In this document: in pieces, positions 16,230 to 64,000 of the stretch | Layout: each line of letters starts with the position of its first letter | Position numbering within the stretch: position 1 is the first letter of the stretch | NCBI GenBank assembly: GCA_017448985.1 | Contig: JAFSKL010000026.1 | Span: 106,612 to 170,611, forward strand | DNA from: Paludibacteraceae bacterium | Lineage (GTDB): Bacteria; Bacteroidota; Bacteroidia; Bacteroidales; Paludibacteraceae | Length of the DNA: 64,000 nucleotides | Direction: 5' to 3' | Translations under genes and position numbers: made by a program | The notes under the pieces: model-generated | What the model saw: only the letters and a program-made list of their open reading frames with translations | Databases searched by the model: none | Told to the model about the DNA's origin: nothing

Positions 16230-16287
16230 GGGTTATGGGTTACGGGTTACGGGTTACGGGTTATGGGTTATGGGTTACGGGTTATGG
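16230..16287. repeat. GGGTTAY heptamer array downstream of the four-helix gene
   Basis: Eight consecutive units of GGGTTAT or GGGTTAC lie between sod and the four-helix-bundle gene and run into the last codons of the latter, whose tail LKPHNP is made by the repeat. Confidence 0.9.
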
Positions 16288-20011: not shown

Positions 20012-20029
20012 GCGAATCAAATTTGGGTG

Positions 20030-20061
20030 CAAAGGTACAACAAAATTTAGATATGTGCAAA
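20030..20061 (-). promoter_or_regulatory. Promoter of the HAD-HD operon
   Basis: TTTG at 20,058-20,061 and TACCTTTG at 20,030-20,037 on the minus strand, spacer 20. The start codon is 19 bases after the -7 box. It should drive HAD-HD, the lipoprotein and msrC. Confidence 0.8.
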
Positions 20062-23312: not shown

Positions 23313-23338
23313 TGGTCGTTGGTCATTGGTCGTTAGAC
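23303..23338. repeat. TTGGTCR heptamer tract between the two permease genes
   Basis: TTATTGG, TCATTGG, TCGTTGG, TCATTGG, TCGTTAG. The tract spans the stop of one permease gene and the ATG of the next; on the minus strand ATGACCAATAATAAT is part of it. Confidence 0.88.
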
Positions 23339-24187
23339 TGTATCCATAAAACTCTTTTGGACCTTATTGAAGAGCATAAGGCCGAAGATGAGTAAAATGA
23401 CTGTGATCAAGGCGCTATATCCGAGCCAGAGCCAGGAGAACTGACCTTGTCCGAGGAGCGAGTATTTGATGGCCTCCATAACCGGCGTGACCGGGTTGAG
23501 CGACATAGCGATACGCAGTTTCTCGTTGGTGACCATGCTGAGCGGATAGATGACAGGCGTGATATAGACCCAAAGCGAGATGATCTTGGCGAGCATGATC
23601 TGCAGATCGCGGTATTTGGTGGTGAGCGAGGACATGATCATGCCGAATCCGACAGCCATCAGCGCCAGAAGCAGCATCAAGAACGGAAACAGGACGACCT
23701 GCCAATGGATGGACAATTCGGTGCCCGTAGCGACATAATAGATATAGAATGCGAAGAAGATACCGAGCTGGATGGCAAAGGACAGGAGATTGGTCGTCAC
23801 AGCCACCAGCGGCATGATGATTCGCGGGAAATAGACCTTACCGAAGATATCCGCGTTGGAGACGAAGGAGTTGGACGTGGCGCTAAGGCAGGACGCGAAA
23901 TAACTCCACACGGAGATGCCCAGCAGGTAGAAGAGCACAGGAGGCACTCCGTCCGTCGGGATATTGGCTATTCCTCCGAAGACGGTGACATAGACGATGA
24001 CAGAGAGGACCGGCGTGATGACGAACCAAAGGGGACCAAGCACCGTCTGCTTGTAGGCGACACGGAAAGCACGCTGCACAAAGAGCACGAACATGTCGCG
24101 GTAACGCCATATCTCTTTCCAATCCAGCGAAAGGAGTTTGTCCTTCGGCGTGATGGTTAGATCCCAGTGTTGATCGTTATTTGTCAT
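23333..24187 (-). CDS. ABC-2 type polysaccharide export permease, Wzm-like (2)
   Basis: The 284-residue protein is a paralogue of the downstream permease (same length, IWRYRDMFVLFVQRAFRVAYKQTVLG at the N-terminus, VVFGGIANIPTDGVPPVLFYL-like loop here starting VTVFGG, and YGKVYF-type motif FGKVYFPRI). About six membrane helices are visible. It may pair with its neighbour as a heterodimer or act separately. It too starts MTNN from a heptamer tract. Confidence 0.9.
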   Translation of the reverse strand: MTNNDQHWDLTITPKDKLLSLDWKEIWRYRDMFVLFVQRAFRVAYKQTVLGPLWFVITPVLSVIVYVTVFGGIANIPTDGVPPVLFYLLGISVWSYFASCLSATSNSFVSNADIFGKVYFPRIIMPLVAVTTNLLSFAIQLGIFFAFYIYYVATGTELSIHWQVVLFPFLMLLLALMAVGFGMIMSSLTTKYRDLQIMLAKIISLWVYITPVIYPLSMVTNEKLRIAMSLNPVTPVMEAIKYSLLGQGQFSWLWLGYSALITVILLIFGLMLFNKVQKSFMDTV

Positions 24188-24233
24188 TGGTCGTTGGTCG
24201 TTAGTCGTTGGTCGTTAGTCGTTGGTCGTTTGT
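24181..24233. repeat. TTGGTCG/TTAGTCG heptamer array
   Basis: Seven units with a 7-base period lie between the permease gene and the MMPL gene and reach into both: the ATG of the permease and the final residues of the MMPL protein (QTTND) derive from it. Confidence 0.9.
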
Positions 24234-28876: not shown

Positions 28877-29338
28877 TTAGTCATTTATCTCATCGGGATC
28901 CAAATCGTCACAGAGGTGATCATGGAGGAGAAGTTCCATTTGCTTGTTGCACTCACCCGGTTGGTGACAGTGAACGATTGGAATATTGATACTTACTATT
29001 TCATATGCGAGCCAAGTGAGATCCAATTGGTGATTGGTCATTGGTGATTGGTCATTGTCCGCTTCGTCATCCGACCATATCTCTTGCTCGTCGTTTATTT
29101 CAAGGGGCATCGGGTCGAGGCATCTGTCACACACAACAAACACAGTTCCATGAACCGCAATATTGAGCTGATAGTCCTCCTCCCGGAGATTTAGCGTTGC
29201 TTTGCAGGACACCGTTCCGTTCAGTATTTCCGATTTCTCCAGAGACTGAAAAAATGCGCTATCTAACTGAAAATCAAACAAATGCGTGCCGATAGGCGTA
29301 CGCGAAAGTTCGATAATATAGTGGTTCTGCTCGCTCAT
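28877..29338 (-). CDS. DUF177/YceD-family protein
   Basis: The 153-residue protein has the DUF177 core: VVCDRCLDPMPLEI near residue 70 and the conserved C-terminal CNKQMELLLHDHLCDDLDPDEIND. The family is tied to rpmF and, in some lineages, to 23S rRNA processing. Residues about 95-106 (NDQSPMTNHQLD) are a heptamer-derived insert just before LTWLAYEIVSINIPIVHCHQPGEC. It leads the rpmF operon from the promoter at 29,401-29,432. Confidence 0.9.
   Translation of the reverse strand: MSEQNHYIIELSRTPIGTHLFDFQLDSAFFQSLEKSEILNGTVSCKATLNLREEDYQLNIAVHGTVFVVCDRCLDPMPLEINDEQEIWSDDEADNDQSPMTNHQLDLTWLAYEIVSINIPIVHCHQPGECNKQMELLLHDHLCDDLDPDEIND
29025..29058. repeat. In-frame heptamer tract in the DUF177 gene
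   Basis: AATTGGT, GATTGGT, CATTGGT, GATTGGT, CATTG run with a 7-base period and encode NDQSPMTNHQL on the minus strand. Confidence 0.88.
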
Positions 29339-30616: not shown

Positions 30617-31369
30617 ATGATCAGTATTATCGTTCCGACATACAATGCAGAAGCATATTTGGATGGTTGTTTGGAGAGCATTCACCAGTCCGCTGAGCGC
30701 CTTCAGCGTTCCGGTGCGCAAACGGTGGAGATCATTGTGGTGGATGACGGAAGCGAGACAGAGGTTACGGGTTACGGGTTACAGGGTACGGGGTACGAGG
30801 TACGGGTTATCCGTCAGGAGCATGCGGGACAGTCGGCAGCCAGAAACAGGGGACTGCAAGCGGCGCAAGGTGAGTTCATAGCTTTCGTGGACGCAGACGA
30901 CAAGCTCGAACCCGACTGGCTGGAACGGCATTGGGCTGCCATCCGAGACGCGGACTATGTGCAGAGCGGGTACATGAGGATAAAGGTGAAAGGTGAAAGG
31001 TTAAAGGTGAAAGGTGAAAGGTTAATGGCGAATGGGAAGACTCCGTGGCATCGGTATCAGTTCACCTCGCCGTGTATGCGTCTGTATCGCAGAGAGGCGA
31101 TCGAGGGCCTGCGCTTTGAAGAAGGGATGATCTACGAGGATGTGATTTGGTCCGTTGATTTATGGCTGCGCAACTTGCGTTGCCGGAAGATTGACTATGC
31201 CGGATACCTCTATACGCTCAACCCGCAGAGCACCACTTCGAACAAGCATCCCGAAGCGGAACAAAAGGTCTTTGCGGTGCTCAAAGAGCGTAGCTGCAAC
31301 GCCACCAGACGAGGCAAAATGATCATTTTATACACTATACTTCGATTAAAACTCCATTTTTTGATATGA
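30617..31369 (+). CDS. Family 2 glycosyltransferase with two repeat inserts
   Basis: The 250-residue protein has MISIIVPTYNAEAYLDGCLESI, IIVVDDGSE near residue 40, AGQSAARNRGLQAA and FVDADDKLEPDW, a normal GT2 core. Two in-frame heptamer inserts occur: residues 50-65 (VTGYGLQGTGYEVR) directly after the VDDGS motif, and residues 122-140 (KVKGERLKVKGERLMANGK). Both are in places where loops are expected. The stop overlaps the start of the PL9-like gene by 4 bases. Confidence 0.9.
   Translation: MISIIVPTYNAEAYLDGCLESIHQSAERLQRSGAQTVEIIVVDDGSETEVTGYGLQGTGYEVRVIRQEHAGQSAARNRGLQAAQGEFIAFVDADDKLEPDWLERHWAAIRDADYVQSGYMRIKVKGERLKVKGERLMANGKTPWHRYQFTSPCMRLYRREAIEGLRFEEGMIYEDVIWSVDLWLRNLRCRKIDYAGYLYTLNPQSTTSNKHPEAEQKVFAVLKERSCNATRRGKMIILYTILRLKLHFLI
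30763..30811. repeat. In-frame GGTTACG-type tract in the GT2 gene
   Basis: GGTTACG, GGTTACA, GGGTACG, GGGTACG, AGGTACG, GGTTATC: 7-base period, encoding VTGYGLQGTGYEVRV. Confidence 0.88.
30981..31036. repeat. In-frame GGTGAAA-type tract in the GT2 gene
   Basis: Seven or so units of AGGTGAA or AGGTTAA encode IKVKGERLKVKGERLMANG. The same heptamer family forms the start of dxr. Confidence 0.9.
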
Positions 31370-41731: not shown

Positions 41732-41762
41732 TTGTATATTCCAAATATTTGTAGTACCTTTG
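41732..41762 (+). promoter_or_regulatory. Promoter of mfd
   Basis: TTG at 41,732-41,734 and TACCTTTG at 41,755-41,762, spacer 20. Transcription should start near 41,768-41,770. Confidence 0.8.
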
Positions 41763-41771
41763 CACGCTAAT

Positions 41772-44700
41772 TTGCACGTAAAGGAAGAAAAACTGAGTAT
41801 TGACGAATTAGAAATACTATTCTCGCATCATCCCGAGCTGAAGGCTTTGGATCAGCGATTATCGAAAGGAGGGGATAGACATATCCTTTTGAGTGGTTTG
41901 CGTGCGTCTGCACGCGCGCTCGCTCTGCACGCGCTGGCGCGATCGCAATTTATAGTGATGGACAATGCCGAGTCGGCGGAGTACATGTACGGAGACCTAA
42001 GGTCATTGGACAATGGACAATGGAAAATGGAAAATGGACATGGGACAAAGGTGTTCTTCTTTCCAAGCAGCAAAAGGCGGAGGACAGTGGATGAGGCGGC
42101 GATGATACAACGGACGGAGACGCTTTCGGCACTCACTCGTGCCACAATGAGCGCTTCGCTCAATGATGCAGCCAAACTGCCTAATGATAGAATGATTGTT
42201 GTCACCTATCCGGAGGCGTTGGCAGAGAGTGTGCCGGCGAAAGAACAGTTGTCCGCCATCAGTTTTCAGTTGTCAGTCGGACAGGAGATACAGCAGTCGG
42301 ATCTCAGTCAGCAGTTATTGGAATTGGGCTTCGAGCGAGTGGACTTTGTGTTCCAGCCCGGGCAGTACGCCGTACGAGGTAGCATCGTCGATATTTACAG
42401 TTACAGTCACGATAATCCCTACCGCCTCGACTTCTTCGGCGACGAGATAGACTCCATTCGCGAGTTCGACATCGAGGACCAGCTATCTCATAGCAGAATA
42501 AACTCTGCTGATATAGTAGGACCGTCTCAGAGCGACTATAGGACCGCTAACGCTGTAGGACCGGCTACGCCTGTAGGACAAACCATTGTGAATTACCTGG
42601 ACGAGGATTTTGTGTGGGTGAGCAACGACTGGAGCGTGGTGCGGTTTAAACTAGATGCCATAGGAGCCATAGGAGCCATAGGAGAACCAGGGAAGATAGA
42701 AGATCGAAGGACCATCGAGATAGCAGACAAGAGTACTTTTGCCGAGCACGCGAAGATAGCATTCGACATCGTACCGCAACCGATCTTCCATAAGCAGTTC
42801 GACATACTGACTGACGACCTGAAGAAACATATCGACCAAGGGTACAAAGTCTATATACTCGCCGAACAGCAGAAGCAGTTGGATCGCCTGAAAGCGATCT
42901 TTGAGAGTTTAGAGGACGGCTCTGCGAGCCTACAGGACGCTAACGCTACAGGTATTAGATTTATTCCCATCAACGCCACTTTGCATGAAGGGTTTGTGGA
43001 CCACGGGCTGAAGGTGTGTTGCTACACCGACCATCAGATCTTTGAGCGGTATCACCGTGTGGCTATGACGAGCGAGAACGCCCGTCGAGGTAAAGCCATC
43101 ATTACCCTACGCGAGATCAATCAGTTGCAGATAGGCGATTATGTCGTGCACTCAGACCACGGAATAGCCAAGTTCGGAGGCCTCGTGACGACCCCCGTGA
43201 ACGGCAAGCCGCAAGAGATGATCAAGTTGAACTACCGCGACGGAGCGAACGTGTTCGTATCAATTCATAACCTTCACCGCATCAGCAAGTACAAAGGCCG
43301 TGAAGGCTCGGAACCGACGATAGCACGACTCGGTTCGGGTGCCTGGGAACGACTCAAAGAGCGGACCAAGGATAAGGTGAAAGACATAGCGCGTGACCTG
43401 ATTCGTCTGTACGCCACCCGCAAGCAACAGCAAGGTTTCGCCTATTCGCCCGACGGATACATGCAACACGAGTTGGAGGCTTCGTTCCTCTACGAAGACA
43501 CGCCCGACCAGGCCAAAGCGACAGCCGATGTGAAGCACGACATGGAGAGTCCGATGCCGATGGACAGGCTCGTCTGCGGCGATGTGGGATTCGGCAAGAC
43601 CGAAGTAGCTATGCGGGCCGCCTTCAAAGCAGCTACCGACGGCAAACAGGTGGCGGTGCTCGTGCCGACGACTGTCCTTGCACTCCAGCACTACAACACC
43701 TTCACCGAACGGATGAAGAACCTGCCGGTGCGCATCGAATACCTCAGCCGGCTCAAGTCGTCCAAAGAGACCAAAGAACTGTTAGCCGACCTGCAAGCCG
43801 GCAAGATAGATATACTCATCGGTACGCACAAACTGATAGGCAAGAGTGTGCATTGGCACGACTTGGGCTTGCTCATCATCGACGAGGAGCAGAAGTTCGG
43901 CGTAGCAGCCAAAGAGAAACTCAAATCGCTGCGGACCAACGTCGATGTCCTGACGCTGACTGCCACGCCTATCCCTCGCACCTTGCAGTTCTCGCTGCTC
44001 GGTGCCCGTGACCTGAGCATCATGACTACCCCGCCCCAGAACCGCTATCCCGTACAGACCGAACTGATCACTATCGACGACGAAGATATCATCAAGGACG
44101 CTATCGAACAGGAGTTGGGCCGCAACGGACAGGTGTTCATCGTCAACAACCGCATCGAGATGCTGCCTCGTATCGAGCGGCGGATTCAGCGTCTCTGTCC
44201 CGAAGCACGCATCGTAGTGGCCCACGGACAGCTGCCTGCCAACGAGATGGAAGAGCGGCTCGAGGCCTTCATCAATTATGACTACGACATCCTGCTCTCG
44301 ACCACTATCATCGAATCCGGCGTCGATATACCGAATGTGAACACGATTCTTATCTTCTCGGCGGACAAGTACGGTTTGGCGGACTTGCACCAGTTGCGCG
44401 GACGCGTGGGACGAAGTAACCGCAAGGCTTACTGTTACCTCATCGCACCCGACAAGGAGCTACTGACCGAAGAGGCGCGACGCCGCTTGGAGGCACTGAG
44501 CACATTTGCCGAATTGGGTGCGGGTTTCAGTCTCGCCATGCAGGACCTCGATATTCGCGGAGCAGGCAACATGCTGGGCAGTGAGCAGTCCGGATTCATT
44601 GCCGATCTCGGCTACGAGACTTATCAGCGCATCCTGAACGAGGCTGTGGAGGAGCTCCGCGAAGAAGAAGGCTTCGCGGAAATGGACAATGGAAAATGGA

Positions 44701-45218
44701 CAATGGACAATGATGCCCACCTCTGGTGTGCGGACTGTCAGTTGGAGACGGACCTGCCCGTCTGTTTCCCCACCGACTATATCGAGAACATCAGCGAACG
44801 AATAACGCTCTATCGCGAGTTGGACAGTCTGCGTTCGGAACAACAGCTACTCGATTTCCGCAAACGCCTCATCGACCGGTTCGGTGTGCTGCCCGAACCA
44901 GCTGACGAACTGCTGTCGGTAGTCCAACTGCGTTGGCTCTGCTGCCGATTGGGCATCGAGAAGATATTGCTTAAAGGTGAAAAGATGACGCTGTTCTTAG
45001 TGCAGCACCGCGATGCATATTGGCAGTCGGAGGCCTTCGGCAACATCGTGCAGTACGCCGCTTCACGACCCGAACGATGCCTGCTATACGAAGAGAGAGA
45101 CAAGAAAGGGTACAAAACCGGACGACGCTGTGTGAGCATAGCCAACGTCAAGACGATTGCAGGAGCAATCACACTGCTCTCGAAAATCGAGCGCAACGAA
45201 TTGAAAATTGAAAATTGA
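41772..45218 (+). CDS. mfd: Transcription-repair coupling factor with six repeat inserts
   Basis: The roughly 1,150-residue protein has the Mfd order: UvrB-like module, RNA-polymerase-interacting domain (GDYVVHSDHGIAKFGGL), helicase with Walker A GDVGFGKTEVA, DEEQ box and TATPIPRTLQF, motif VI HQLRGRVGRS, and a TRCF C-terminal domain. No ATG is near the N-terminus: TTG at 41,760 overlaps the -7 box, TTG at 41,772 is the first usable codon, and CTG at 41,793 (LSIDELEIL) follows AAGGAAG, so the start is not certain. In-frame inserts lie at 42,005, 42,247, 42,482, 42,656, 42,910 and 44,681, all in variable parts. Confidence 0.95.
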   Translation: MHVKEEKLSIDELEILFSHHPELKALDQRLSKGGDRHILLSGLRASARALALHALARSQFIVMDNAESAEYMYGDLRSLDNGQWKMENGHGTKVFFFPSSKRRRTVDEAAMIQRTETLSALTRATMSASLNDAAKLPNDRMIVVTYPEALAESVPAKEQLSAISFQLSVGQEIQQSDLSQQLLELGFERVDFVFQPGQYAVRGSIVDIYSYSHDNPYRLDFFGDEIDSIREFDIEDQLSHSRINSADIVGPSQSDYRTANAVGPATPVGQTIVNYLDEDFVWVSNDWSVVRFKLDAIGAIGAIGEPGKIEDRRTIEIADKSTFAEHAKIAFDIVPQPIFHKQFDILTDDLKKHIDQGYKVYILAEQQKQLDRLKAIFESLEDGSASLQDANATGIRFIPINATLHEGFVDHGLKVCCYTDHQIFERYHRVAMTSENARRGKAIITLREINQLQIGDYVVHSDHGIAKFGGLVTTPVNGKPQEMIKLNYRDGANVFVSIHNLHRISKYKGREGSEPTIARLGSGAWERLKERTKDKVKDIARDLIRLYATRKQQQGFAYSPDGYMQHELEASFLYEDTPDQAKATADVKHDMESPMPMDRLVCGDVGFGKTEVAMRAAFKAATDGKQVAVLVPTTVLALQHYNTFTERMKNLPVRIEYLSRLKSSKETKELLADLQAGKIDILIGTHKLIGKSVHWHDLGLLIIDEEQKFGVAAKEKLKSLRTNVDVLTLTATPIPRTLQFSLLGARDLSIMTTPPQNRYPVQTELITIDDEDIIKDAIEQELGRNGQVFIVNNRIEMLPRIERRIQRLCPEARIVVAHGQLPANEMEERLEAFINYDYDILLSTTIIESGVDIPNVNTILIFSADKYGLADLHQLRGRVGRSNRKAYCYLIAPDKELLTEEARRRLEALSTFAELGAGFSLAMQDLDIRGAGNMLGSEQSGFIADLGYETYQRILNEAVEELREEEGFAEMDNGKWTMDNDAHLWCADCQLETDLPVCFPTDYIENISERITLYRELDSLRSEQQLLDFRKRLIDRFGVLPEPADELLSVVQLRWLCCRLGIEKILLKGEKMTLFLVQHRDAYWQSEAFGNIVQYAASRPERCLLYEERDKKGYKTGRRCVSIANVKTIAGAITLLSKIERNELKIEN
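42005..42043. repeat. In-frame ATGGACA heptamer tract in mfd (1)
   Basis: ATTGGAC, AATGGAC, AATGGAA, AATGGAA, AATGGAC encode SLDNGQWKMENGHG. Confidence 0.9.
42247..42280. repeat. In-frame CAGTTGT-type tract in mfd (2)
   Basis: CAGTTGT, CCGCCAT, CAGTTTT, CAGTTGT, CAGTCGG encode EQLSAISFQLSVG. A similar tract is in the signal peptide of the PL9-like protein. Confidence 0.8.
42482..42580. repeat. In-frame hairpin-type insert in mfd (3)
   Basis: Successive small hairpins (AGCAGAATAAACTCTGCT, AGCGTTAGCG and GGCGTAGCC on the complement) are joined by TAGGACCG. The region encodes SADIVGPSQSDYRTANAVGP and a few more residues. Confidence 0.8.
42656..42699. repeat. In-frame 9-base-period tract in mfd (4)
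   Basis: TGCCATAGG, AGCCATAGG, AGCCATAGG, AGAACCAGG encode AIGAIGAIGEPG. Confidence 0.85.
42910..42955. repeat. In-frame hairpin-type insert in mfd (5)
   Basis: GAGGACGGCTCTGCGAGCC, then TACAGGACGCTAACGCTACAGG: two small hairpins joined by ACAGGACG, encoding EDGSASLQDANATG. The joint matches the composite at 20,947 and 56,184. Confidence 0.8.
44681..44712. repeat. In-frame ATGGACA heptamer tract in mfd (6)
   Basis: AATGGAC, AATGGAA, AATGGAC, AATGGAC encode EMDNGKWTMDND between the helicase core and the C-terminal domain. Confidence 0.9.
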
Positions 45219-50331: not shown

Positions 50332-51416
50332 GCGAGCGAATTGACCAGCATACCACAGGCGGCAAGGATGTCTTCGCCGCGTGAACGGCGAATAGTGGTG
50401 GTGAGACCGTGCTCGGTTAGATAGTCCCTAAAACACTCCATTTGTTTCTCATCGGATGAGACAAAACGGCTTTCGACCTTCGACTTTTGACTTTCGACTT
50501 TTTCCACTCCTTCGTGAAAGCGAATGAGATTGATGCGACAGTTAAGGCCTTTGAGCAAACGAAGCAGTTCCTTAGCGTGACGAGGTGAGGTGTTTTGGCC
50601 GTTCCAACAGATATATTCGAAACTGACGCGGCGTTGATGAGACCACTCGTACTGCTTGAGCAGGGACACCACATCCGTGATAGAATATAGTTTCTCTGCG
50701 GGCATTATCTGTGCGCGTTCGGCAGGGAACGGATTGTGCATAGACACGGCAAGATGACAGTCGCTCTCGTCCAGGAAACGCTTCATAGCCGGAATACCGA
50801 CCGTAGAAACGGTGATTCGTTTAGGCGACCACGCACAGCCGTAAGCCGAAGTCAGGATCTCCAACGCCCGCAGCACATTATCCAGATTATCCATCGGTTC
50901 GCCTTCACCCATTAGCACCAGATTAGATAAAGGCTGTTGGCTGTTAGTCAGTAACTGTTGGTCAATTTCAAATACTTGATTCAGGATGTCTGCGGCGGAG
51001 AGGTGACCGTGAAAACCGAGTGTGCCGGTCATGCAGAAACGGCAGCCCATCTTGCAGCCTGCCTGCGTCGAGACGCAGAGCGTAGCCCTGTCTTCCTCGG
51101 GAATAAAGACCGTTTCCACGAAACGGGATTGGTCATTGGTCGTTGCGGGACAGAGCCTGTCGTTGGAGACTGCAAACAAGTATTTGCGGGTACCATCGAC
51201 GCTGACTGCCTCTTTAACGGGTGCGTGACGACCGACGGTATAGTTAGCTTTGAGGGCTTCACGACCTTTGAGCGATATATTGGTCATGGCATCAAAATCC
51301 GTCACACGCCGTACATAGAGCCACTCCGCCAGCTGTTTACCGGCGAACTTGGGCAAGCCTATGCGCAAAGCCAGGTCTTGCAGTTCGGACAATGTTTTCC
51401 CTAATAAGGTCTCCAC
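50328..51416 (-). CDS. rlmN: Dual-specificity RNA methyltransferase RlmN with three repeat inserts
   Basis: The 362-residue radical-SAM enzyme has C121, C125 and C128 (AGCKMGCRFCMTG), GEGEPMDN, STVGIPAMKRF and Cys354 (AACGML), which forms the covalent RNA intermediate. It methylates A2503 of 23S rRNA and A37 of some tRNAs. In-frame inserts are at 85-97 ([11 protein letters not shown]), 153-164 (QQLLTNSQQPLS) and 306-317 (KVESQKSKVESR). The first is shared with the acyltransferase at 52,952-53,542, the third with pheS. All lie outside the catalytic core motifs. Confidence 0.96.
   Translation of the reverse strand: METLLGKTLSELQDLALRIGLPKFAGKQLAEWLYVRRVTDFDAMTNISLKGREALKANYTVGRHAPVKEAVSVDGTRKYLFAVSNDRLCPATTNDQSRFVETVFIPEEDRATLCVSTQAGCKMGCRFCMTGTLGFHGHLSAADILNQVFEIDQQLLTNSQQPLSNLVLMGEGEPMDNLDNVLRALEILTSAYGCAWSPKRITVSTVGIPAMKRFLDESDCHLAVSMHNPFPAERAQIMPAEKLYSITDVVSLLKQYEWSHQRRVSFEYICWNGQNTSPRHAKELLRLLKGLNCRINLIRFHEGVEKVESQKSKVESRFVSSDEKQMECFRDYLTEHGLTTTIRRSRGEDILAACGMLVNSLA
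50470..50506. repeat. In-frame TTTCGAC heptamer tract in rlmN
   Basis: CTTTCGA, CCTTCGA, CTTTTGA, CTTTCGA, CTTTTTC encode EKVESQKSKVES on the minus strand; pheS has the same type. Confidence 0.9.
50933..50965. repeat. In-frame TGTTGGC-type tract in rlmN
   Basis: TGTTGGC, TGTTAGT, CAGTAAC, TGTTGGT, with a 7-base period, encode QQLLTNSQQPL on the minus strand. Confidence 0.8.
51128..51170. repeat. In-frame composite (heptamer plus hairpin) in rlmN
   Basis: TTGGTCA and TTGGTCG units run into the hairpin ACAGAGCCTGT and return to CGTTGG. Positions 51,138-51,164 are identical to 53,489-53,515. Confidence 0.9.
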
Positions 51417-51428: not shown

Positions 51429-52445
51429 TTACTCTTCATTCTTCACTAACTCGATATGGGGATAAGCGAAGGTAAATCCTTGCGGCGGCAATTCGGTGTA
51501 GAAGCGTTCCTGCAGGTCAAAGAACACATCCCAGTAGTCATCGCCCCGTACCCACGCCCGTACCACGAAAGTGATATCGCTGGAGTTGAGCGACATCAGT
51601 GCAGCAAACGGAGCCGGAATCGATTTCATCCGATAATTGACAGTAGTCAACTGGTAGTTATGGTTCTTGAGGTCAGCATAGAGCGCGTTCATGTCCGTAT
51701 CCTCTTTGAGCACGCGCTCGTCGCTGTTGACGATGTTGAGAATAGCTGCCTTGCAGGCCGTGGCATCAATGCCATACGACACACTCACTTTCCATTCTAC
51801 TCGCCGTAACGGACGACCGTTGTAGTTATTGATCGTACCGTTGGACAAAGCGCCGTTCGGCAAAATGACCACGCAGTTGTCGCGTGTCAGAATCTTCGTG
51901 GACGTGATATTCACCTCTATCACCTTGCCTACGTATCCTTGTGCTTCAATGAAATCGCCGGCTTTGAAGGGTTTGAAAGCGAGTAACATGATACCACCGG
52001 CAAAGTTCTGCACCGTTCCGGAGAGGGCCATACCGACAGCCAAACCTCCGGCTGCCAGCAGCGCTGCGATAGAGGTAGTGTCTATGCCCAAGGTACTGAT
52101 ACAGATAACTATCACAAGGATCGACAGCGAGATGGTGGTGAGCGACGTGAGGAAAGAAGCAATCGTCGGCTCCGTTTTGCGTCTTGCAAACCAGCGTTTG
52201 AGCCCTTTCTGCACCAAGCGGACCAGCCAAATACCGATGATAAGGATGAGGAAAGCAGCAAGCAGTTTGAGTCCGAAATGGGATATCTTATCCACAAAAA
52301 TCTGCCAGAATCCTTCCGGATCCGTGCGGGCATATTCAATCATATGTTTCGCGCCCTGCTTGACAGAGTCCGCCGTCAGTTTCTGTTGCTCTTGTACCAC
52401 AGTCGTGGCCAAAGCAAGATTCTGTAAATCGTCAAGAAGAATCAT
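51429..52445 (-). CDS. Small-conductance mechanosensitive channel, MscS type
   Basis: The 338-residue protein has an N-terminal amphipathic extension, three membrane helices (LKLLAAFLILIIGIWLV, FLTSLTTISLSILVIVICIST, SIAALLAAGGLAVGMALSGT), the pore helix and beta domain NFAGGIMLLAFKPFKAGDFIE and ILTRDNCVVILPNGALSN. The Ala/Gly-rich TM3 and PNGALSN motif are diagnostic. It opens under membrane tension. It lies 12 bases upstream of rlmN on the same strand. Confidence 0.94.
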   Translation of the reverse strand: MILLDDLQNLALATTVVQEQQKLTADSVKQGAKHMIEYARTDPEGFWQIFVDKISHFGLKLLAAFLILIIGIWLVRLVQKGLKRWFARRKTEPTIASFLTSLTTISLSILVIVICISTLGIDTTSIAALLAAGGLAVGMALSGTVQNFAGGIMLLAFKPFKAGDFIEAQGYVGKVIEVNITSTKILTRDNCVVILPNGALSNGTINNYNGRPLRRVEWKVSVSYGIDATACKAAILNIVNSDERVLKEDTDMNALYADLKNHNYQLTTVNYRMKSIPAPFAALMSLNSSDITFVVRAWVRGDDYWDVFFDLQERFYTELPPQGFTFAYPHIELVKNEE

Positions 52446-52451
52446 GAGTAT

Positions 52452-52488
52452 CCAGTAATCAGTAATCAGTATTCAGTATTCAGGATTC
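52452..52488. repeat. CAGTAAT/CAGTATT heptamer tract
   Basis: CCAGTAAT, CAGTAAT, CAGTATT, CAGTATT, CAGGATT fill the gap between the mscS ATG and the DUF4293 stop. Confidence 0.88.
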
Positions 52489-52490
52489 CG

Positions 52491-52984: not shown

Positions 52985-53542
52985 GGCTTCTTCGAGCGAA
53001 GCACATTTGTCTCCGTGGGCATTGACCCATCCTATTTGGCGTGCAGGGTTGCCGACCATGAGTGCATAAGCGGGCACATCCTTGGTCACGACAGAGCCTG
53101 CACCGATGAGGCAGTACTCGCCGAGCGTGTGGCCGCAGACGATGGTGGCATTGGCTCCGACGGAAGCACCGCGTTTGAGGATAGTGGGCTTGTACTCATC
53201 CTTGCGGGACACGGCAGCTCGCGGGTTGATGACATTGGTGAAGACCATAGACGGTCCGAGGAACACATCGTCCTCGCAACGCACACCCGTATAGACGGAG
53301 ACGTTGTTCTGTATCTTGCAGTTACGTCCCAGCACCACATCCGGCGAGATGACCACATTCTGGCCTATGTTGCAGTTCTCGCCGATCACGCAGCCGGACA
53401 TGATATGGCTGAAATGCCAGATCTTTGTGCCTTTGCCTATCTGACAGCCCTCGTCCACATAAGACGATTCATGAACGAAGAAGTCGTTGGTCGTTGCGGG
53501 ACAGAGCCTGTCGTTAGTCATAGGTTGTTGGTCGTTGGTCAT
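52952..53542 (-). CDS. Hexapeptide-repeat sugar N-acyltransferase, WbbJ/FdtC-like
   Basis: The 196-residue protein is a left-handed beta-helix of hexapeptide repeats ([87 protein letters not shown]). It resembles N-acetyltransferases that act on nucleotide 3-amino sugars (FdtC, WlbB), with a His in the [13 protein letters not shown] turn. It could finish the pathway begun by the FdtA- and FdtB-like enzymes. The first 19 residues ([19 protein letters not shown]) and last 9 come from repeats, so the native start is unclear. Confidence 0.88.
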
Positions 53543-54975: not shown

Positions 54976-55015
54976 AAAATCATTTACTATTTGTTCATTT
55001 ACTATTTACCATCTG
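54976..55015. repeat. Heptamer tract between dxr and rseP
   Basis: CATTTAC, TATTTGT, TCATTTA, CTATTTA, CC. It supplies the last residues of Dxr (MVNSK) and its stop codon. Confidence 0.8.
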
Positions 55016-56161
55016 TTCTGCGATGCGACGGGCGGCGATGTCAGTTGCCACATAGTCATCGTAGGTGGGTTTGGCCACAAACTCTGCCTTGGACATAGTG
55101 CCGGCGATGATGTCGGACATCTGCAGGAAGCCGCAACGTCCTTGCCGGAAAGCGAGATTGACCACTTCGTTAGCGGCATTGAGCACGCAAGGTATATTGC
55201 CTCCGCGACGGACCGCTTCGTAAGCGAGACCCAAGTTCGGGAAGCGCTGCAAGTCCGGTTCCTCGAAGGTCAGACTGCCCAGGCTGAACAAGTCTGCACG
55301 GGGAAAATCGCTCGTCAGACGCTCGGAGAAAGAGAGGGCATACTGGATAGGAAGCCGCATGTCCGGAGCACCGAGTTGGGCCTTGATGGCTCCGTCCGTG
55401 AACTGCACCGCCGAATGAACGATCGACTGCGGATGAACGAGTACCTGCACTTTCTCCACGGGCACGCCGAAGAGCCATTTGGCCTCTATCACCTCAAAGC
55501 CTTTGTTCATCATCGATGCCGAGTCGATCGTTATCTTGTCGCCCATATGCCAATTGGGGTGCCGAAGTGCATCAGCGGCCGTGACCGACTGCATCTGTTC
55601 GAGCGTGAAAGTACGGAAAGGTCCGCCGCTGGCTGTCAACAAGATTTTCTCCACCTCGTTGAGTTCCTCGCCCACGAGGCACTGGAAGATAGCGCTGTGC
55701 TCGCTGTCCACCGGCAGAATGGATGCGTGGTGCAGAAGCGCGAGGTCGCAGATGATCTCACCTGCCACGACGAGCGTCTCCTTGTTGGCGAGAGCTATCG
55801 TCTTGCCCGCTTTGATGGCTTCGATAGTGGGCCGCAGACCTGCGTAGCCTACCATGGACGCCACCACGACATCGATAGAGGGCATCGTCACGACCTCTGC
55901 TATCGCATCGGCGCCTGCCCAGATCTTACAGTTGAGCGATGAGAGCTTCGTTTTCAGTGCATCGTAGAGCGATTCGTCGGCGATGCACACCACTTCGGGC
56001 CGAAACTCGAGTGCCTGCTCCACCAGCTTGTCGATGCTCCTGTTCGCGCACAAGGCATAGACGCTGTACCGCTCCGGATGAGCGCGTACCACATCCAAGG
56101 TCTGCGTGCCGATTGAGCCCGTACTTCCTAAAATTGCCAGATTTTTCCTTTCACCTTTCAC
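54995..56161 (-). CDS. dxr: 1-deoxy-D-xylulose 5-phosphate reductoisomerase
   Basis: The 388-residue enzyme has the NADPH loop ILGSTGSIGTQTLDVV, ALANKETLVVAGE, PVDSEHSAIFQCL, TASGGPFR and KITIDSASMMNKGFEVIEA (metal and substrate site). It makes MEP for isoprenoids. The start is a GTG at 56,159-56,161; MKGERKN is written by GGTGAAA heptamers, and an ATG nearby is out of frame. The C-terminal VNSK is also repeat-derived. Confidence 0.96.
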   Translation of the reverse strand: MKGERKNLAILGSTGSIGTQTLDVVRAHPERYSVYALCANRSIDKLVEQALEFRPEVVCIADESLYDALKTKLSSLNCKIWAGADAIAEVVTMPSIDVVVASMVGYAGLRPTIEAIKAGKTIALANKETLVVAGEIICDLALLHHASILPVDSEHSAIFQCLVGEELNEVEKILLTASGGPFRTFTLEQMQSVTAADALRHPNWHMGDKITIDSASMMNKGFEVIEAKWLFGVPVEKVQVLVHPQSIVHSAVQFTDGAIKAQLGAPDMRLPIQYALSFSERLTSDFPRADLFSLGSLTFEEPDLQRFPNLGLAYEAVRRGGNIPCVLNAANEVVNLAFRQGRCGFLQMSDIIAGTMSKAEFVAKPTYDDYVATDIAARRIAEQMVNSK

Positions 56162-56232
56162 CCTCTCATCCTTTCACCTTTAACCTGTAGGCGCTTGCGC
56201 CGTCCTGTAGCGAAGCGTCCTTTCACCTTTCC
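56149..56232. repeat. Composite repeat upstream of and into dxr
   Basis: TTTCACC-type heptamers (56,149-56,182 and 56,219-56,232) surround the 37-base hairpin core 56,184-56,220, whose exact reverse complement is inside the FemAB-like gene. Confidence 0.9.
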
Positions 56233-57042
56233 CTACCACACTATTGCTTCTTCGGGATTCACAAACTTACCGGCGTCCCACAGTTCGACGGACAGGTCGT
56301 GCACGCCGTCCATCAGTCCTATCGACTCACCTTGCGCCACCGAGGAACCTTGCGCTTTGAGCACTTTGGGCAGATGGCGATAGATGGTGACGAACTGGTT
56401 GATCTGGAGCACCACGGTATAGGTGTTATCCGCCATCCGTTCGACGAGCACTATGTCTCCGCGTGTCGTGGCTTGCACATTCTCGTTCTTGGCAGCGCGT
56501 ACGGAAGTGCCGTAGAGCCGCTGTTCGGGTTGCGCCGATTGCACTACCACACCACGCACAGGCCGGCACAGGTAACGCACATTGTGCGACGAAGTGTTGT
56601 CAAACAGCATCAGCCGGTCGCGTTCCTGCTGCTCGTACTGCGCCATGAAAGCGTCGGTGAACTCATTGCGCTGCTCCAACAGCCGTTCACGCTCCACCAG
56701 CTGCAACGAGTCGAGGCTCTGCACGCTGTCCGTCTGTATATCGCCGGCCGTCAACTGCTTGATCACATCGAGGTACTGACGCTGGAGCGTCAGGTCAGCC
56801 TGCAACGAATCGACACGCGCCGACTCGATGATGATCTGCTGACGCAGGCTCTCGTTGTAACCCGGCAGGATATTGCGGATAGGCGTATAGACGATGAGCA
56901 CGGACAGCAGTACGATCAGCAACACGAAGGTAAGCGTGATCACGCTGATAGCACCCCAGAAAGTGACACGAAAGTGAAACACTTCGCGCAAGGTGCTGTC
57001 CTCCAGCATCGCCAGCCGATATTTACGTTCTCTTTTCGGCAA
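56233..57042 (-). CDS. Membrane-anchored M23-like protein without catalytic residues
   Basis: The 269-residue protein has a basic N-terminus, one membrane helix at about 28-52, a coiled coil at about 62-145 and a C-terminal LytM/M23 domain at about 155-269. The zinc motifs are gone: the H-x-G-x-D site reads YGTSVRAA and the H-x-H site reads DLSVELW, while the neighbouring fold features (YRHLPKVL, GKFVNPEEAIVW) remain. Like EnvC it may activate or scaffold a peptidoglycan enzyme instead of cutting. It lies directly downstream of the fumarase gene. Confidence 0.85.
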   Translation of the reverse strand: MPKRERKYRLAMLEDSTLREVFHFRVTFWGAISVITLTFVLLIVLLSVLIVYTPIRNILPGYNESLRQQIIIESARVDSLQADLTLQRQYLDVIKQLTAGDIQTDSVQSLDSLQLVERERLLEQRNEFTDAFMAQYEQQERDRLMLFDNTSSHNVRYLCRPVRGVVVQSAQPEQRLYGTSVRAAKNENVQATTRGDIVLVERMADNTYTVVLQINQFVTIYRHLPKVLKAQGSSVAQGESIGLMDGVHDLSVELWDAGKFVNPEEAIVW

Positions 57043-57043
57043 T

Positions 57044-57079
57044 TCTAATTTTTAATTTTTAATTCTTAATTTTTAATTA
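57044..57079. repeat. TTTTTAA heptamer tract
   Basis: CTAATTT, TTAATTT, TTAATTC, TTAATTT, TTAATTA fill the gap between fumarase and the M23-like gene. Confidence 0.75.
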
Positions 57080-57080
57080 T

Positions 57081-58754
57081 TCACAAAATGGTACAACCGC
57101 TACAGGGCTTGAGCATTTTGAAGAAATCGTTGCCTTTGTCATCGACCAGTATGAAGGCAGGGAAGTCCTCCACTTCGATTTTCCAGATGGCCTCCATACC
57201 GAGTTCGGGATACTCGACGCACTCGATCGACTTGATATTGTTCTGCGCCAGGATAGCAGCGGGGCCACCGATGGAGCCGAGGTAGAAACCGCCGTGTTTC
57301 TGACAAGCGTTGGTCACATCGATGGAGCGGTTACCCTTGGCCAGCATGATGAGCGAGCCTCCGTGGTCCTGGAACTCGTCCACATACGGGTCCATACGGC
57401 CGGCCGTGGTCGGACCCATCGAACCGCAAGCCATGCCTGCCGGTGTCTTGGCCGGACCGGCGTAGTAGATCGGATGGTTCTTGAGGTACTCGGGCATTTC
57501 TTCACCGGCATCGAGGCGCGCTTTGATCTTGGCATGAGCTATGTCACGGCCTACGATGATTGTGCCGTTGAGCGAGAGGCGTGTACCGATCGGGTACCGG
57601 GTCAGAATAGCGCAGACGTCCTTCATCGGCTGATTGAGGTCGATACGAACGGCATCGCCTTCGCCCGCCTGACGCAGTTCTTCGGGAATGAGGGAAGCAG
57701 GGTTATTGTCCAGCTTCTCGATCCATATACCGTCTTTGTTGATTTTGCATTTGATGTTTCGGTCGGCAGAGCAGCTCACGCCGAGACCTATCGGGCACGA
57801 AGCGCCGTGACGCGGCAGACGCACCACACGCACATCGTGAGCCATGTACTTACCGCCGAACTGCGCACCGAGACCGATCTTGTAGGCCTCCTGCAACAGC
57901 TGTTTCTCCAACTCGATATCGCGGAAAGCGCGACCCGTCTCATCGCCCGTCGTCGGCAGCGAGTCATAGTAATGGGTGCTCGCCAGTTTGACGGTCAGCA
58001 GGTTCTTCTCCGCCGAGGTGCCACCGATGACGATGGCGATATGGTAAGGCGGACAAGCGGCGGTACCGAGGCTCTTCATCTTCTCCACGAGGAAAGGAAT
58101 GAGCGTGCCCGGATTCTGTATGCGGGCTTTGGTCTCCTGATAGAGATAGGTCTTGTTGGCACTGCCGCCACCCTTGGTCACACAGAGGAAGCGATACTCC
58201 GCGCCTTCCGTGGCCTCGAGGTCGATCTGCGCAGGCAGGTTGCACTTGGTGTTCACCTCGTCGTACATGTTCAGCGGCGCATTCTGGCTGTAACGCAGGT
58301 TGCACTCCGTATAGGTATTGAACACGCCACGCGAGAGCGCCTCCTCGTCAGAAATCTCCTTTGTACTTTGTCCTTTGTCACTTTGTACCTTCGTCCATAC
58401 ACATTGTCCTTTCTCGCCATGGATGATAGCCGTGCCGGTGTCCTGACAGAGCGGCAGCTGGCCTTTGCAAGCCACCTCGGCGTTGCGCAGGAAAGTGAGC
58501 GCCACATATTTGTCGTTCGCCGAAGCCTCCGGGTCACGCAGGATTTTCGCCACCTGCTCGTTGTGCGAGCGACGCAACATGAAACTGACATCATGGAAAG
58601 CCTGTTGTGCCATCAGCGTCAGTGCTTCCGGTTGCACTTTGAGGATCTCATGTCCTTCGAACTCGCCGACCGACACATAGTCCTTGGTCAGCAGATAATA
58701 CTCGGTCTCATCCTTGCCGAGTTGAAACATCGGTGCATACTTAAATTCAGCCAT
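57081..58754 (-). CDS. Class I fumarate hydratase
   Basis: The 557-residue enzyme is the iron-sulfur type (FumA/FumB-like). Cluster cysteines are in [10 protein letters not shown] near 103, GVSCSADRN near 325 and [13 protein letters not shown] near 438; IGGTSAEKN and [11 protein letters not shown] are also conserved. It converts fumarate and malate, and in anaerobic Bacteroidales serves the reductive branch to succinate. A heptamer insert ([12 protein letters not shown]) sits near residues 118-130, just after the first cluster motif. The last residues are KPCSGCTIL. Confidence 0.94.
58358..58390. repeat. In-frame TTTGTAC heptamer tract in fumarase
   Basis: CTTTGTA, CTTTGTC, CTTTGTC, ACTTTGT, ACC encode [12 protein letters not shown] on the minus strand. 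Confidence 0.9.
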
Positions 58755-61940: not shown

Positions 61941-62133
61941 CCAATAAATCGCAAACGCTATAATATCAATATGTCTGCGCAACGCTTTGCGCTTGGGTGA
62001 CCGGTCAAGTTCGGCCGATAGATTGCTCCGGGTTTAGCGTCGCGGAGCAGGGACGATTATATAGTTTAATCAAATAGCAATTCGTGAAGGGCTTCGTAAA
62101 CCACAACGACCTTTTCACCGGAAGGCAATGTTT
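61941..62133. other. Gene-free stretch with further hairpins
   Basis: No gene is seen. GCGCAACGCTTTGCGC near 61,977 and GCTCCG...CGGAGC near 62,024-62,048 are further small hairpins, GC-richer than the surroundings. No standard promoter for the M4 gene was found here. Confidence 0.4.
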
Positions 62134-62259
62134 CTAATGATTATGGATAATACTCTTTAATGATGCATCCAACTCTTCGATGGTATGAAGGCTATCCCAT
62201 TTCTCTTCAGAGATAGTTCCTGCACAATGCAGAATAGGTTGTTTTAATGCTGCTTCCAT
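62134..62259 (-). CDS. Very small protein of unknown function
   Basis: The 41-residue product MEAALKQPILHCAGTISEEK (and on to SIIHNH) starts 34 bases after a full promoter box (62,293-62,324). The ATG further upstream would precede the transcript. I do not recognise it. Size and acidic/helical composition would suit a small regulatory or antitoxin-like protein; no toxin gene adjoins it. Confidence 0.5.
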   Translation of the reverse strand: MEAALKQPILHCAGTISEEKWDSLHTIEELDASLKSIIHNH

Positions 62260-62292
62260 ATGTTTTATGTCATTTGCAAACCTTTGCGGGTG

Positions 62293-62324
62293 CAAAGGTA
62301 CAACAATTATTTGATATATGCAAA
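62293..62324 (-). promoter_or_regulatory. Promoter of the 41-residue gene
   Basis: TTTG at 62,321-62,324 and TACCTTTG at 62,293-62,300 on the minus strand, spacer 20. Confidence 0.78.
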
Positions 62325-62421
62325 TATTTAAGAGAAAAAAGTGAAATTTTAATAGAAAAAACGGTATCCCGGAATAGAGGGACACCGGAAAAGAAACGCG
62401 AGACTTGGATGGGACGAGGGG

Positions 62422-62574
62422 TTAAATAGCTACCGTAAACGGATCAACTTGCGTCACAACTCCGTTCTCACTAAAAATGAGCGGTTGGTTGTCACGACGA
62501 TGTTGCTCGACAACACGACGATGTGTTATTTGTAATCCTTGATTGATTTTGGATTCTAATTCTCTTTCGCTCAT
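62422..62574 (-). CDS. Small protein, possible antitoxin-like
   Basis: The 50-residue product starts MSERELESKINQGLQITHRR and ends GVVTQVDPFTVAI. It begins 33 bases after the promoter at 62,607-62,638. A helix followed by QPLIFSENGVVTQV, a strand-turn-strand, resembles small Bacteroidetes proteins with the pattern KI-x-G-x-x-x-A-x-x-x-L-V-E...L-V-x-S-x-N-G. The function is unknown to me. Confidence 0.55.
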   Translation of the reverse strand: MSERELESKINQGLQITHRRVVEQHRRDNQPLIFSENGVVTQVDPFTVAI

Positions 62575-62606
62575 GTTGCATCTTTGCCATTTGACCTTTG
62601 CGGGTG

Positions 62607-62638
62607 CAAAGGTACAAAGAAATATTGATATATGCAAA
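62607..62638 (-). promoter_or_regulatory. Promoter of the 50-residue gene
   Basis: TTTG at 62,635-62,638 and TACCTTTG at 62,607-62,614 on the minus strand, spacer 20. The -33 box is 2 bases before the M20 stop codon. Confidence 0.8.
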
Positions 62639-62639
62639 T

Positions 62640-64000
62640 TTATTTGTAATTTTTTGCGTATTCTTGGTAAAATTCGGTGACGGCGATGATGCCGCGTTGC
62701 CAGACGTCGAGGTCCATGGATTCGTTGGGTGAGTGGATAGCGTTCTGCTCGAGGCCGAAGCCCATGAGGATCGTTTTGCAGCCGAGGATGGCTTCGAAGG
62801 CGGCGATGATGGGTATGGAGCCGCCTCGACGAGCGGCAAGAGGCCGTTTGCCGAAGGCTACTTCGAAACCGTGTTCGGCAGCTCGGTAAGCCGGTATATC
62901 AATCGGGCAGACATAGCCTTGGCCGCCATGCATGGGCGTAACGGTCACACGGACGCCCTTGGGAGCGAGGGTCTGCATATAGTCGATGAAGGCTTGCGAA
63001 ATACGTTCGTGGTCCTGATTAGCGACGAGCCGACAACTCACTTTGGCGAAAGCCTTGGAAGGCAGGACCGTCTTGGAGCCTTCGCCTGTGTAGCCACCCC
63101 AGATACCGCAGATATCGAAAGAGGGCCGGCAGGAGTTACGCTCGAGTGTGCTGTAACCCTCCTCGCCGAAGACATCGCTGACGCCGATGGCTTGGTTGTA
63201 GGCCTGCCGGTCGAAGGGTATCTGCGCTATCATGGCGCGTTCGGCATCGGGTATAGGCAGCACATCGTCGTAGAAATGCGGGATAGTGATCCGTCCGTGG
63301 TCGTCCACTACTTTGGCGAGCATCTCGCAGAGGGCATTGAGGGGGTTCTTGACGGCTCCGCCGAAGTGGCCCGAGTGGAGGTCCCGGTTAGGCCCATCGA
63401 CCTCGATCTGCCAATAGGCGAGTCCACGCAGGCCGGTAGTGATAGAGGGCGTCTCTTTGCCTATCATGGAGGTGTCGGACACAAGGATGATATCCGCTTT
63501 GAGCAGTTCACGGTGGTCCTCCAGGAAGGCCTCGAGAGAGGGCGAGCCGATCTCTTCCTCGCCTTCGAAGATGAACTTGACGTTACAGCGCATCTGTCCT
63601 GTCCGGACGAGGTACTCAAAGGCTTTGACCTGAATCATAGCCTGCCCTTTGTCGTCGTCTGCGCCGCGGGCATAGAGTCGTCCGTCACGGATAGTCGGTT
63701 CCCACGGATCGGAGTGCCAGAGTTCGAGGGGTTCGACAGGCATCACGTCGTAGTGGGAATAGACCAAAACGGTTAAGGGTGAGGGGTTACCGGTTACGGG
63801 TGAGGGGTTACCGGTTACGGGTGAGGGGTTACCGGTTACGGGTGAGGGGTTACCGGTTACGGGTGAGGGGTTACCGGTTAAGGGTGAGGGGTTACCGGTT
63901 ACGGGTGAGGGGTTACCGGTTACGGGTGAGGGGTTACCGGTTAAGGGTGAGGGGTTACCGGTTACGGGTGAGGGGTTACCGGTTACGGGTGAGGGGTTAC
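62640..64000 (-). CDS. M20 family dipeptidase with a long heptad repeat, N-terminus beyond the window
   Basis: The visible 453 residues hold the M20 core: VYSHYDVMPVEP (zinc His), YARGADDDKGQ (bridging Asp), FEGEEEIGSPS (catalytic Glu pair), GLRGLAYWQIEVDGPNRDLHSGHFGG (dimerisation lid) and the late His in ENAIHSPNES-like EQNAIHSPNES. The family cleaves dipeptides with two zinc ions. The TTG before VYSHYD is not the start: the frame stays open leftward of it in the protein through eleven 21-base units to the window edge. M20 enzymes have about 80 residues before this strand, so the N-terminal part should lie beyond the array. Confidence 0.92.
   Translation of the reverse strand, partial: NPSPVTGNPSPVTGNPSPLTGNPSPVTGNPSPVTGNPSPLTGNPSPVTGNPSPVTGNPSPVTGNPSPVTGNPSPLTVLVYSHYDVMPVEPLELWHSDPWEPTIRDGRLYARGADDDKGQAMIQVKAFEYLVRTGQMRCNVKFIFEGEEEIGSPSLEAFLEDHRELLKADIILVSDTSMIGKETPSITTGLRGLAYWQIEVDGPNRDLHSGHFGGAVKNPLNALCEMLAKVVDDHGRITIPHFYDDVLPIPDAERAMIAQIPFDRQAYNQAIGVSDVFGEEGYSTLERNSCRPSFDICGIWGGYTGEGSKTVLPSKAFAKVSCRLVANQDHERISQAFIDYMQTLAPKGVRVTVTPMHGGQGYVCPIDIPAYRAAEHGFEVAFGKRPLAARRGGSIPIIAAFEAILGCKTILMGFGLEQNAIHSPNESMDLDVWQRGIIAVTEFYQEYAKNYK
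63771..64000. repeat. 21-bp tandem array (three 7-base units) translated in the M20 gene
   Basis: Eleven units of GGTTAMG-GGTGAGG-GGTTACC run to the window edge; the last lacks one base. Units 1, 6 and 9 have GGTTAAG, the others GGTTACG. On the minus strand in the M20 frame each unit reads G-N-P-S-P-V-T, or L for V in the variant, with no stop codon. Confidence 0.95.

Follow-up and report, generated by a model that had tools for sequence, protein, structure and literature searches.

In bacterial genes, simple repeats are usually discussed either as phase switches of surface genes or as elements of intergenic DNA that keep out of coding sequence. The subject here is a 21-bp tandem array in an M20 dipeptidase gene of a Paludibacteraceae bacterium (order Bacteroidales; GenBank assembly GCA_017448985.1). 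The array lies at the end of the 64,000-nt stretch analyzed (contig JAFSKL010000026.1, here C6, positions 106612-170611), referred to below as the window, whose last base is also the last base of C6. We read it, with a probability of roughly 0.8, as an in-frame internal insert of a dispersed 7-bp tandem-repeat family that would spread by copying within the genomes of this group. By analogy, the array appears to act like the palindromic elements of Rickettsia, and its DNA resembles the heptamer repeats of Xanthomonas and Nostoc and the TAACTGA heptamers; it is not itself a palindromic element.

Rickettsia palindromic elements were reportedly described by Ogata in 2000 and 2002. In the excerpts of the cited accounts on which this and the following comparisons draw, they are short dispersed repeats of ~150 bp, palindromic and encoding a conserved peptide, that lie in frame in unrelated metabolic genes whose enzyme activity is reportedly kept (PMC10969869, PMC6649704). 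The likeness to the present locus is in-frame insertion into unrelated genes, namely M20, superoxide dismutase (SOD), GH3 and Mfd, as judged by orthologues. Unlike those elements, the focal insert is a 7-bp tandem array and not a ~150-bp palindrome, although a dispersed TGTAG..GTCC unit with a 5-bp-stem hairpin exists elsewhere in this genome. PARCEL repeats are coding repeats proposed to be mobilized within genomes, 25 residues long and palindromic, and are found mostly in unassigned open reading frames (ORFs) and membrane proteins (PMC2996958). They share with the present arrays a coding location and a proposed intragenome mobility, and differ in their 25-residue palindromic unit.

At the level of DNA, the nearest systems are heptamers. 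TAACTGA repeats occur in Beggiatoaceae, cyanobacteria and some Bacteroidetes with a strain-patchy distribution, and some run through ORFs in the stop-free orientation and encode a heptapeptide. In the genome examined in that work they are mostly intergenic, and the ORF copies are concentrated at protein termini or in hypothetical proteins, an RNA polymerase-like ORF being the exception (PMC4679880). The arrays described here lie in internal loops of conserved enzymes and consist of other words, neither TAACTGA nor its reverse complement. Heptamer repeats are over-represented in many bacteria and under-represented in the coding DNA of Xanthomonas and Nostoc, whose dispersed G-rich 7-bp tandem repeats (GGGAATC in Xanthomonas) often lie near ORF ends (PMC4692102). 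Several of the present arrays, in contrast, are within enzymes, and other heptamers of this genome are not G-rich. In the P6b loop of the Nostoc trnL intron, alternative 7-nt words occupy one variable loop, with repeated shifts of word (PMC4476775); that system is an intron RNA stem-loop, whereas the loop at issue here belongs to a protein. The present repeats are heptanucleotide tandem repeats in being dispersed 7-bp tandem units with spectrum peaks at 7, 14, 21 and 28 bp. Among the titles and abstracts listed by literature searches, none described in-frame heptamer arrays in Bacteroidales enzyme loops, a weak negative, as most subscription journals lay outside the search.

Tandem Repeats Finder (TRF) places the focal array at 63770-64000 (minus strand as coding strand), with a period of 21, 11.0 copies and 97% matches. 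Its 11 units occupy the last 231 bases; eight are CGGTTACGGGTGAGGGGTTAC, and three carry one substitution each. As a preliminary description of this DNA had proposed, each 21-bp unit is built from three 7-base words, CGGTTAC, GGGTGAG and GGGTTAC, with C/A variants, and the self-match of the array (0.97 at lag 21, 0.70 at lags 7 and 14) bears this out. The stop-free heptads that it had read in the gene's own frame are likewise present: a single frame of the minus strand is open, encodes (GNPSPV/LT)n and continues directly into VLVYSHYDV, or VLVYSHYDVMPV, while the remaining two minus frames have a stop in each unit. The non-coding strand carries runs of 3-4 G. A long palindrome at the site was considered and rejected, the inverted repeats in the array being short, within-unit and imperfect, with arms of 9-12 nt produced by the unit GTTACCGGTTAC. 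As single-stranded DNA the array folds a little better than the average shuffle (z -1.54, equalled in 14 of 200 shuffles), which does not settle the palindrome question. A known structured RNA was also rejected, with no Rfam match in 62000-64000. The array had been taken to end at 64000; this position is the contig end, and another contig of the assembly, C27, begins in the same array.

The window holds the C-terminal part of the dipeptidase (62640-63998, minus strand; CNDP2-like), with the array at its present 5' end. Pfam matches are Peptidase_M20 (PF01546, E 4.3e-31) and M20_dimer (PF07687, E 9.9e-18), and the closest solved structure is the cytosolic non-specific dipeptidase CNDP2 of mouse (2zof, E 1.1e-60). 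This ORF keeps HYD, DDDKG, EGEEEIGS and IHSPNE, which we take to be metal-binding stretches of the enzyme; all are invariant in 19 aligned orthologues, the K of DDDKG nearly so. The remainder of the gene is placed by inference on the minus strand of C27:1-477. C27 opens inside the array, in frame, and its initial 113 bases are identical to the window's final 113; exact overlaps of 50 and 29 bp are possible too. In order of translation, its minus strand encodes the N-terminus MCNNMDIQQYIDAHRARFMDEWASLIRIPSVSC, then HADLL and a first array; the strand GNPFVFAEYK comes next and leads into the beginning of a second array. Within the genome, the M20 N-terminus is present in a single copy, on C27, and so is the C-terminal part. 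Joining at any of the three overlaps yields one ORF, of 574, 595 or 602 aa, in which loop 1 has 37 aa and loop 2 at least 89 aa, counted up to VLVY; the array in the window is the C-terminal part of loop 2. Short-read contigs often terminate in repeats, and the true length may therefore exceed 574-602 aa.

Given the same frame and array on C27 and the single-copy N-terminus there, the array would be an internal in-frame insert filling two loops that flank one strand. The suggestion that the true N-terminal domain lies on the far side of the array, with the repeat as an internal linker, is thus supported by the frame on C27, the 113-bp overlap and the single-copy halves. The proposed check of the frame beyond the window end came out in its favor, the same frame running on C27 into an M20 N-terminus; in both cases the link between the contigs is inferred. 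The position next to an active-site strand also holds in the sequence; what it adjoins, however, is a loop whose length varies among relatives.

This variation is evident in 29 orthologues from the same genus, the best-scoring after the window's own in a search that matched 58 of 61 genomes. Their loop 2 has 7-23 aa, counted one residue short of the VLVY endpoint used for the focal protein. Five of the loops contain clear heptamer arrays, of the words TACACCA, AATTCTC, AATTGTC, AACAGCC and AATCAGC, with a lag-7 self-match of at least 0.71. Averaged over the loop DNA, self-match reaches 0.41 at lag 7 (all 29 loops); at lag 14 it is 0.39 (the 24 loops that are long enough), and at the remaining lags from 5 to 15 it stays at 0.22-0.30. 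The loop words of G015 resemble arrays elsewhere in the 39-kb sample of that genome (TAGCTAACAGCTAA and similar). The loop of G003 consists of a 15-bp repeat, TGTAGCGAAGCGTCC, which recurs at two sites within the Mfd gene of G003 and forms part of a unit that is scattered through the window's genome. The alignments of mouse CNDP2 and Sso-CP2 (4mmo), which are related over most of the enzyme, contain no repeat insert in either protein, and the Sso-CP2 loop is shorter than that of the orthologue L011. The differences in loop length and filler among orthologues indicate that loop 2 is a site tolerating length change. The placement of the repeat had been thought highly unusual; it is instead the longest of 30 heptamer-type arrays in the window, and orthologues hold other repeats in the same loop.

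The origin of loop 1 can be traced further. It opens with a 72-bp tract (C27:226-297) identical to C27:557-628 in a nearby GH3 glycosidase gene. The first 24 bp of the tract are native GH3 codons encoding DLLGYYAP: the GH3 orthologues of G004 and G002 have DLLGYYAP at the same place without a GGTTAC-type array, and that of G007 has DLMGYYEP. DLLGYYAP is absent from all 29 M20 orthologues examined, which mostly have AEVLPSAG or similar at this site, with longer fillers in L017 and L023. Because the tract is perfect and includes native GH3 codons that M20 orthologues lack, the simplest reading is that an array together with its native flank was copied from GH3 into M20. Slippage, to which the preliminary description had attributed changes in repeat length, would therefore be insufficient by itself, part of the insert having apparently come from the neighboring gene. 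Native M20 codons, GGCAACCCCT (GNP; e.g. in L011), resemble the repeat GGTAACCCCT.

Heptamer periodicity extends well beyond this gene. With the focal array removed, recurring exact 10-mers form 16, 11, 8 and 4 runs in the window at 7, 14, 21 and 28 bp, compared with means of at most 0.2 at these lags in 10 Markov shuffles. In 82.6 kb of the genome, with the M20 and GH3 arrays of C27 included and the focal window array excluded, the counts are 23, 16, 17 and 7, and no other lag up to 30 exceeds 4. A sample of 11 same-genus genomes (385 kb) shows a patchy lag-7 bias, with 15 runs in G015 and none in G002, G006, G014 or G029; it also peaks at lag 14 (38 runs) and lag 11 (23 runs). The spectrum of G035 is raised by ~4 at most lags, probably by N runs. 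Eleven genomes of other families (395 kb) have 5 runs at lag 7, 4 of them in G058. These spectra cover 5.7 to 64 kb per genome, so arrays can escape them: G006 has zero lag-7 runs in 40 kb and 57 GGTTAC sites genome-wide. In G058, from another family of the order, one locus (L083) carries AGGCTCA heptamer arrays in both orientations, and the habit is thus not limited to one genus.

Genome-wide word searches point to the same patchiness. In 101 genomes, a sample of a larger genus in which many are incomplete, the GGTTAC family is present in 39 and the ATTGGTS family in 67; GGTTAC sites range from 0 to 125 per genome over the sample. The two are unevenly distributed: G122 has 1 GGTTAC and 115 ATTGGTS sites, and the window's genome 94 and 41. 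Reversed-pattern controls are near zero in most genomes; in the window's genome the GGTTAC pattern and its reversed control give 94 vs 0 sites at up to 1 mismatch and 249 vs 69 at up to 3. The distribution of the heptamer families looks like lineage-specific bursts. A long GGTTAC-type array on contig C37 (26035-26510, L006) is interrupted by a repeated spacer, GGAATAAATTTTTAGAAAACT.

The focal words also occur in other enzymes. Searching the genome collection with a 30-mer taken from the focal array gives four exact matches. All four are in metagenome-assembled genomes (MAGs) of Bacteroidales, one of them from dairy-cattle reticulum, and at each locus the repeat lies in frame within a long ORF. 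A phosphotransferase-fold protein (L039) has SPVTGNPSPVT preceding FLYRDFQSRNVM; DNA polymerase I (L040, 3439-5760) has QPVTGNPSPVT and a second heptad-like stretch, PLTANRSPLT; and a protein with AMP-binding, condensation and NAD_binding_4 domains (L041) has APVTGNPSPVT in a linker. Thioredoxin reductase (L042, 6150-7139; score 342.3, just under the model cut-off of 343.45) carries two separate PVTGNPSPVT inserts, one directly before PLPGVFAAGDC. To judge from these MAGs, the source genome is probably that of a rumen bacterium.

Within the window, 11 of the 30 arrays lie in nine Pfam-matched genes: FdtA, SOD, HAD, FemAB, YceD, family-2 glycosyltransferase (two arrays), Mfd (two), fumarase and M20. 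The others are intergenic, lie at the ends of genes, or fall in ORFs that have no Pfam match or were unscanned. The list of 30 was compiled at a lax threshold without a shuffle control, and its shortest arrays may be chance. Orthologue comparison covers M20, SOD, Mfd and GH3; the glycosyltransferase, FdtA, YceD and the named MAG proteins are assigned by domain annotation. In 26 of the 30 arrays a shared consensus, approximately TNACCAW, reaches 6.31 bits, whereas 30 letter shuffles average 4.97 and do not exceed 5.17; a mutational bias common to the arrays might produce it as well. Stems of at least 6 are not enriched near the arrays (3 in 3220 bp around 28 arrays vs 151 in 64000 bp), and GC skew along the window has no clear relation to array orientation. 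All four period-21 TRF rows in the window fall within ORFs, in keeping with growth by 21-bp steps in coding DNA, though four is a small number where genes are dense.

The SOD gene can be compared within the genome. The Fe/Mn enzyme (15615-16220) carries a GGGTTAC/GGGTGAG array at 15918-15967 (minus strand), which inserts KPVTHNPSPVTPNPSPL between Sod_Fe_N and Sod_Fe_C; a second SOD on contig C18, 87% identical, has no insert, and the SOD of G001 has a different heptad type, KPYTNDQSQMTNDKLPI, at the same place. In Mfd (41760-45218), AATGGAC-type arrays occupy an N-terminal loop whose length varies among orthologues (42001-42041, plus strand) and a loop in the C-terminal part (44677-44713, plus strand), which in relatives holds other fillers, including the TGTAG..GTCC repeat in G003. 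A third array in Mfd, at 42259-42279, was dropped from the enzyme count as native sequence common to orthologues.

The family-2 glycosyltransferase (30617-31369) contains two in-frame arrays on the plus strand, one of the GGGTTAC family read from the heptamer's other strand (30760-30806) and one of AAAGGTG type with period 21 (30976-31032). The remaining enzyme arrays are on the minus strand: in the linker joining two FdtA domains (7448-7487; gene 7034-7900), in a HAD-type hydrolase immediately before LGDSLVD (19530-19564; gene 18770-20032), in a YceD-family gene (ATTGGTS type, 29024-29059; gene 28877-29338) and, as a short array, in fumarate hydratase (58357-58380; gene 57081-58754). Outside enzymes, a GGGTTAC array at 16228-16292 (plus strand) lies between the SOD gene, which extends to 16220, and an ORF at 16275-16649, whose 3' end it overlaps. 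Heptamer arrays also fill short gaps between ORFs at 23302-23338, 24179-24234, 52444-52490 and 57041-57083, sometimes giving first or last codons.

The heptamers are accompanied by other small repeats, among them the TGTAG..GTCC unit. One copy, with heptamers, lies in frame in a FemAB/GNAT-like gene (20295-21371) at 20937-20999 (minus strand) and is 95% identical over 62 bp to 56169-56230; the latter belongs to a copy at 56142-56230 (plus strand) that lies upstream of the DXP reductoisomerase gene (54995-56161) and reaches into its 5' end. A 70-bp query combining heptamers and TGTAGGCGCTTGCGCCGTCCTGTAGCGAAGCGTCC, the TGTAG..GTCC unit, has 23 matches in the genome, self and partial matches included, and among 41 genomes the combined unit also matches 11 times in G003, 14 in G014 and once in G006. 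A double hairpin in the unit was considered and rejected, there being one 5-bp stem, and no inverted repeat of at least 6 was found in 56166-56235. A further module, GACAGGCTCTGTCCCGCAACGAC, stands next to heptamers at 51132-51164 and 53490-53522, is translated in two window genes and recurs at L043:872-894; across 61 genus genomes, at up to 2 mismatches, it has 4 copies here, 3 in G078 and none in the other 59. A separate 92% identical pair of stretches, 62137-62362 near M20 and C24:28492-28716, surrounds a small ORF and may be a separate repeated gene or element.

These observations suggest a mechanism in three steps. A new copy of an array would arise by template switching or gene conversion, aided by short matches such as that between GGCAACCCCT and GGTAACCCCT. 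Within coding DNA it would persist only if its frame has no stop and the site is a loop that can change in length. It would then grow or shrink in 21-bp steps by recombination or slippage, because in the M20 array a change by 7 or 14 bp would introduce the stops of the other frames; this constraint would explain a 21-bp unit made from 7-bp words. Of all heptamers, some 69% have no stop on a given strand if perfectly repeated, so many arrays can be read through. The elements of this account that come directly from the sequences are the frame across the array, its position, the missing enzyme part in the same frame and array on C27, the apparently copied tract, the variable loop fillers in M20, SOD and Mfd and the patchy families. 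More tentatively, and a little short of even odds, one copying process may spread both the 7-bp arrays and the tiny units and provide new in-frame loops for core enzymes, with each species having its own family. No dedicated transposase is known for such a process, though no search for one was made. Because any heptamer array without stops is translated as a heptapeptide repeat, such copying would keep supplying these loops. The repeat peptide itself is most likely a flexible, exposed, proline-rich loop without a specific job.

Several points weigh against the insert-by-copying reading. Direct evidence for copying is one tract, and loop 2 could have grown in place. The join of C6 to C27 rests on the overlap and the complementarity of the gene parts; a check on synteny in the 1.5-kb M20 flanks of relatives found no GH3. 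In 24 of the 29 orthologues the loop is not a clear heptamer array, and it varies with or without one. The host proteins of the thioredoxin reductase and DNA polymerase I inserts are identified by domain annotation alone. Reversed patterns outnumber forward ones in G070 (51 vs 0, ATTGGTS) and G105 (8 vs 5, GGTTAC), from which it follows that heptamer words overlap between families. Finally, the estimate of purifying selection (pN 0.07-0.11 and pS 0.64-0.93 against six orthologues) integrates over the entire branch, most of which predates the insertion, and dS is close to saturation.

The best-surviving alternative, though an unlikely one, is local slippage, with arrays seeded by chance and grown in place without copying between loci. 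The loop varies in all 29 orthologues, native M20 codons offer possible seeds such as GGCAACCCCT, and heptamer arrays occur across many lineages, all as slippage would predict. It is already disfavored for loop 1, however, by the perfect tract with GH3 codons inside M20, and it does not readily account for the 23 matches of the 70-bp query or for the consensus common to 26 window arrays, with the caveat on mutational bias given above. Rather less probable is a heptad linker selected for function, whether through an adjustable length, through proline-rich binding or by exporting the dipeptidase, slippage being the switch. Such selection would suit an array that is long, in frame and nearly uniform and in which a 7- or 14-bp change would truncate the enzyme, as in phase variation; yet the fillers of orthologues share a position and not a sequence, and the same peptide is present in unrelated proteins. 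An assembly artefact, with short reads wrongly joined in the array or in the M20/GH3 tract, is improbable. The contig does terminate in the array, making the copy number there unreliable, and the overlap is ambiguous (113, 50 or 29 bp), but C27 by itself runs from loop 1 through the strand into the beginning of loop 2, repeats and unique sequence follow one another in frame, and the 30-mer is in frame in other genes of four MAGs. That the array is merely a 5' flank, with a truncated protein starting downstream at TTG 63767, is very improbable: a 375-aa ORF from this codon exists, but its product would be missing the N-terminal part that the 29 examined orthologues possess and that this genome carries, in frame, on C27 alone.

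An in-frame insert spread by copying would have consequences beyond one dipeptidase. Short repetitive DNA appears to reshape core proteins in this group, with relatives filling the same loops with different repeats. The loop 1 case reveals the source from which an insert was apparently copied, and the 21-bp unit leads to a testable prediction on frame-preserving length change. The system is tractable, as the genus provides many natural experiments at one loop and the array-free SOD paralogue provides a control. If the reading is true, these arrays would be a mobile source of protein insertions acting on housekeeping genes and not on surface antigens, and the core enzymes affected would include DNA polymerase I, thioredoxin reductase, Mfd and superoxide dismutase.
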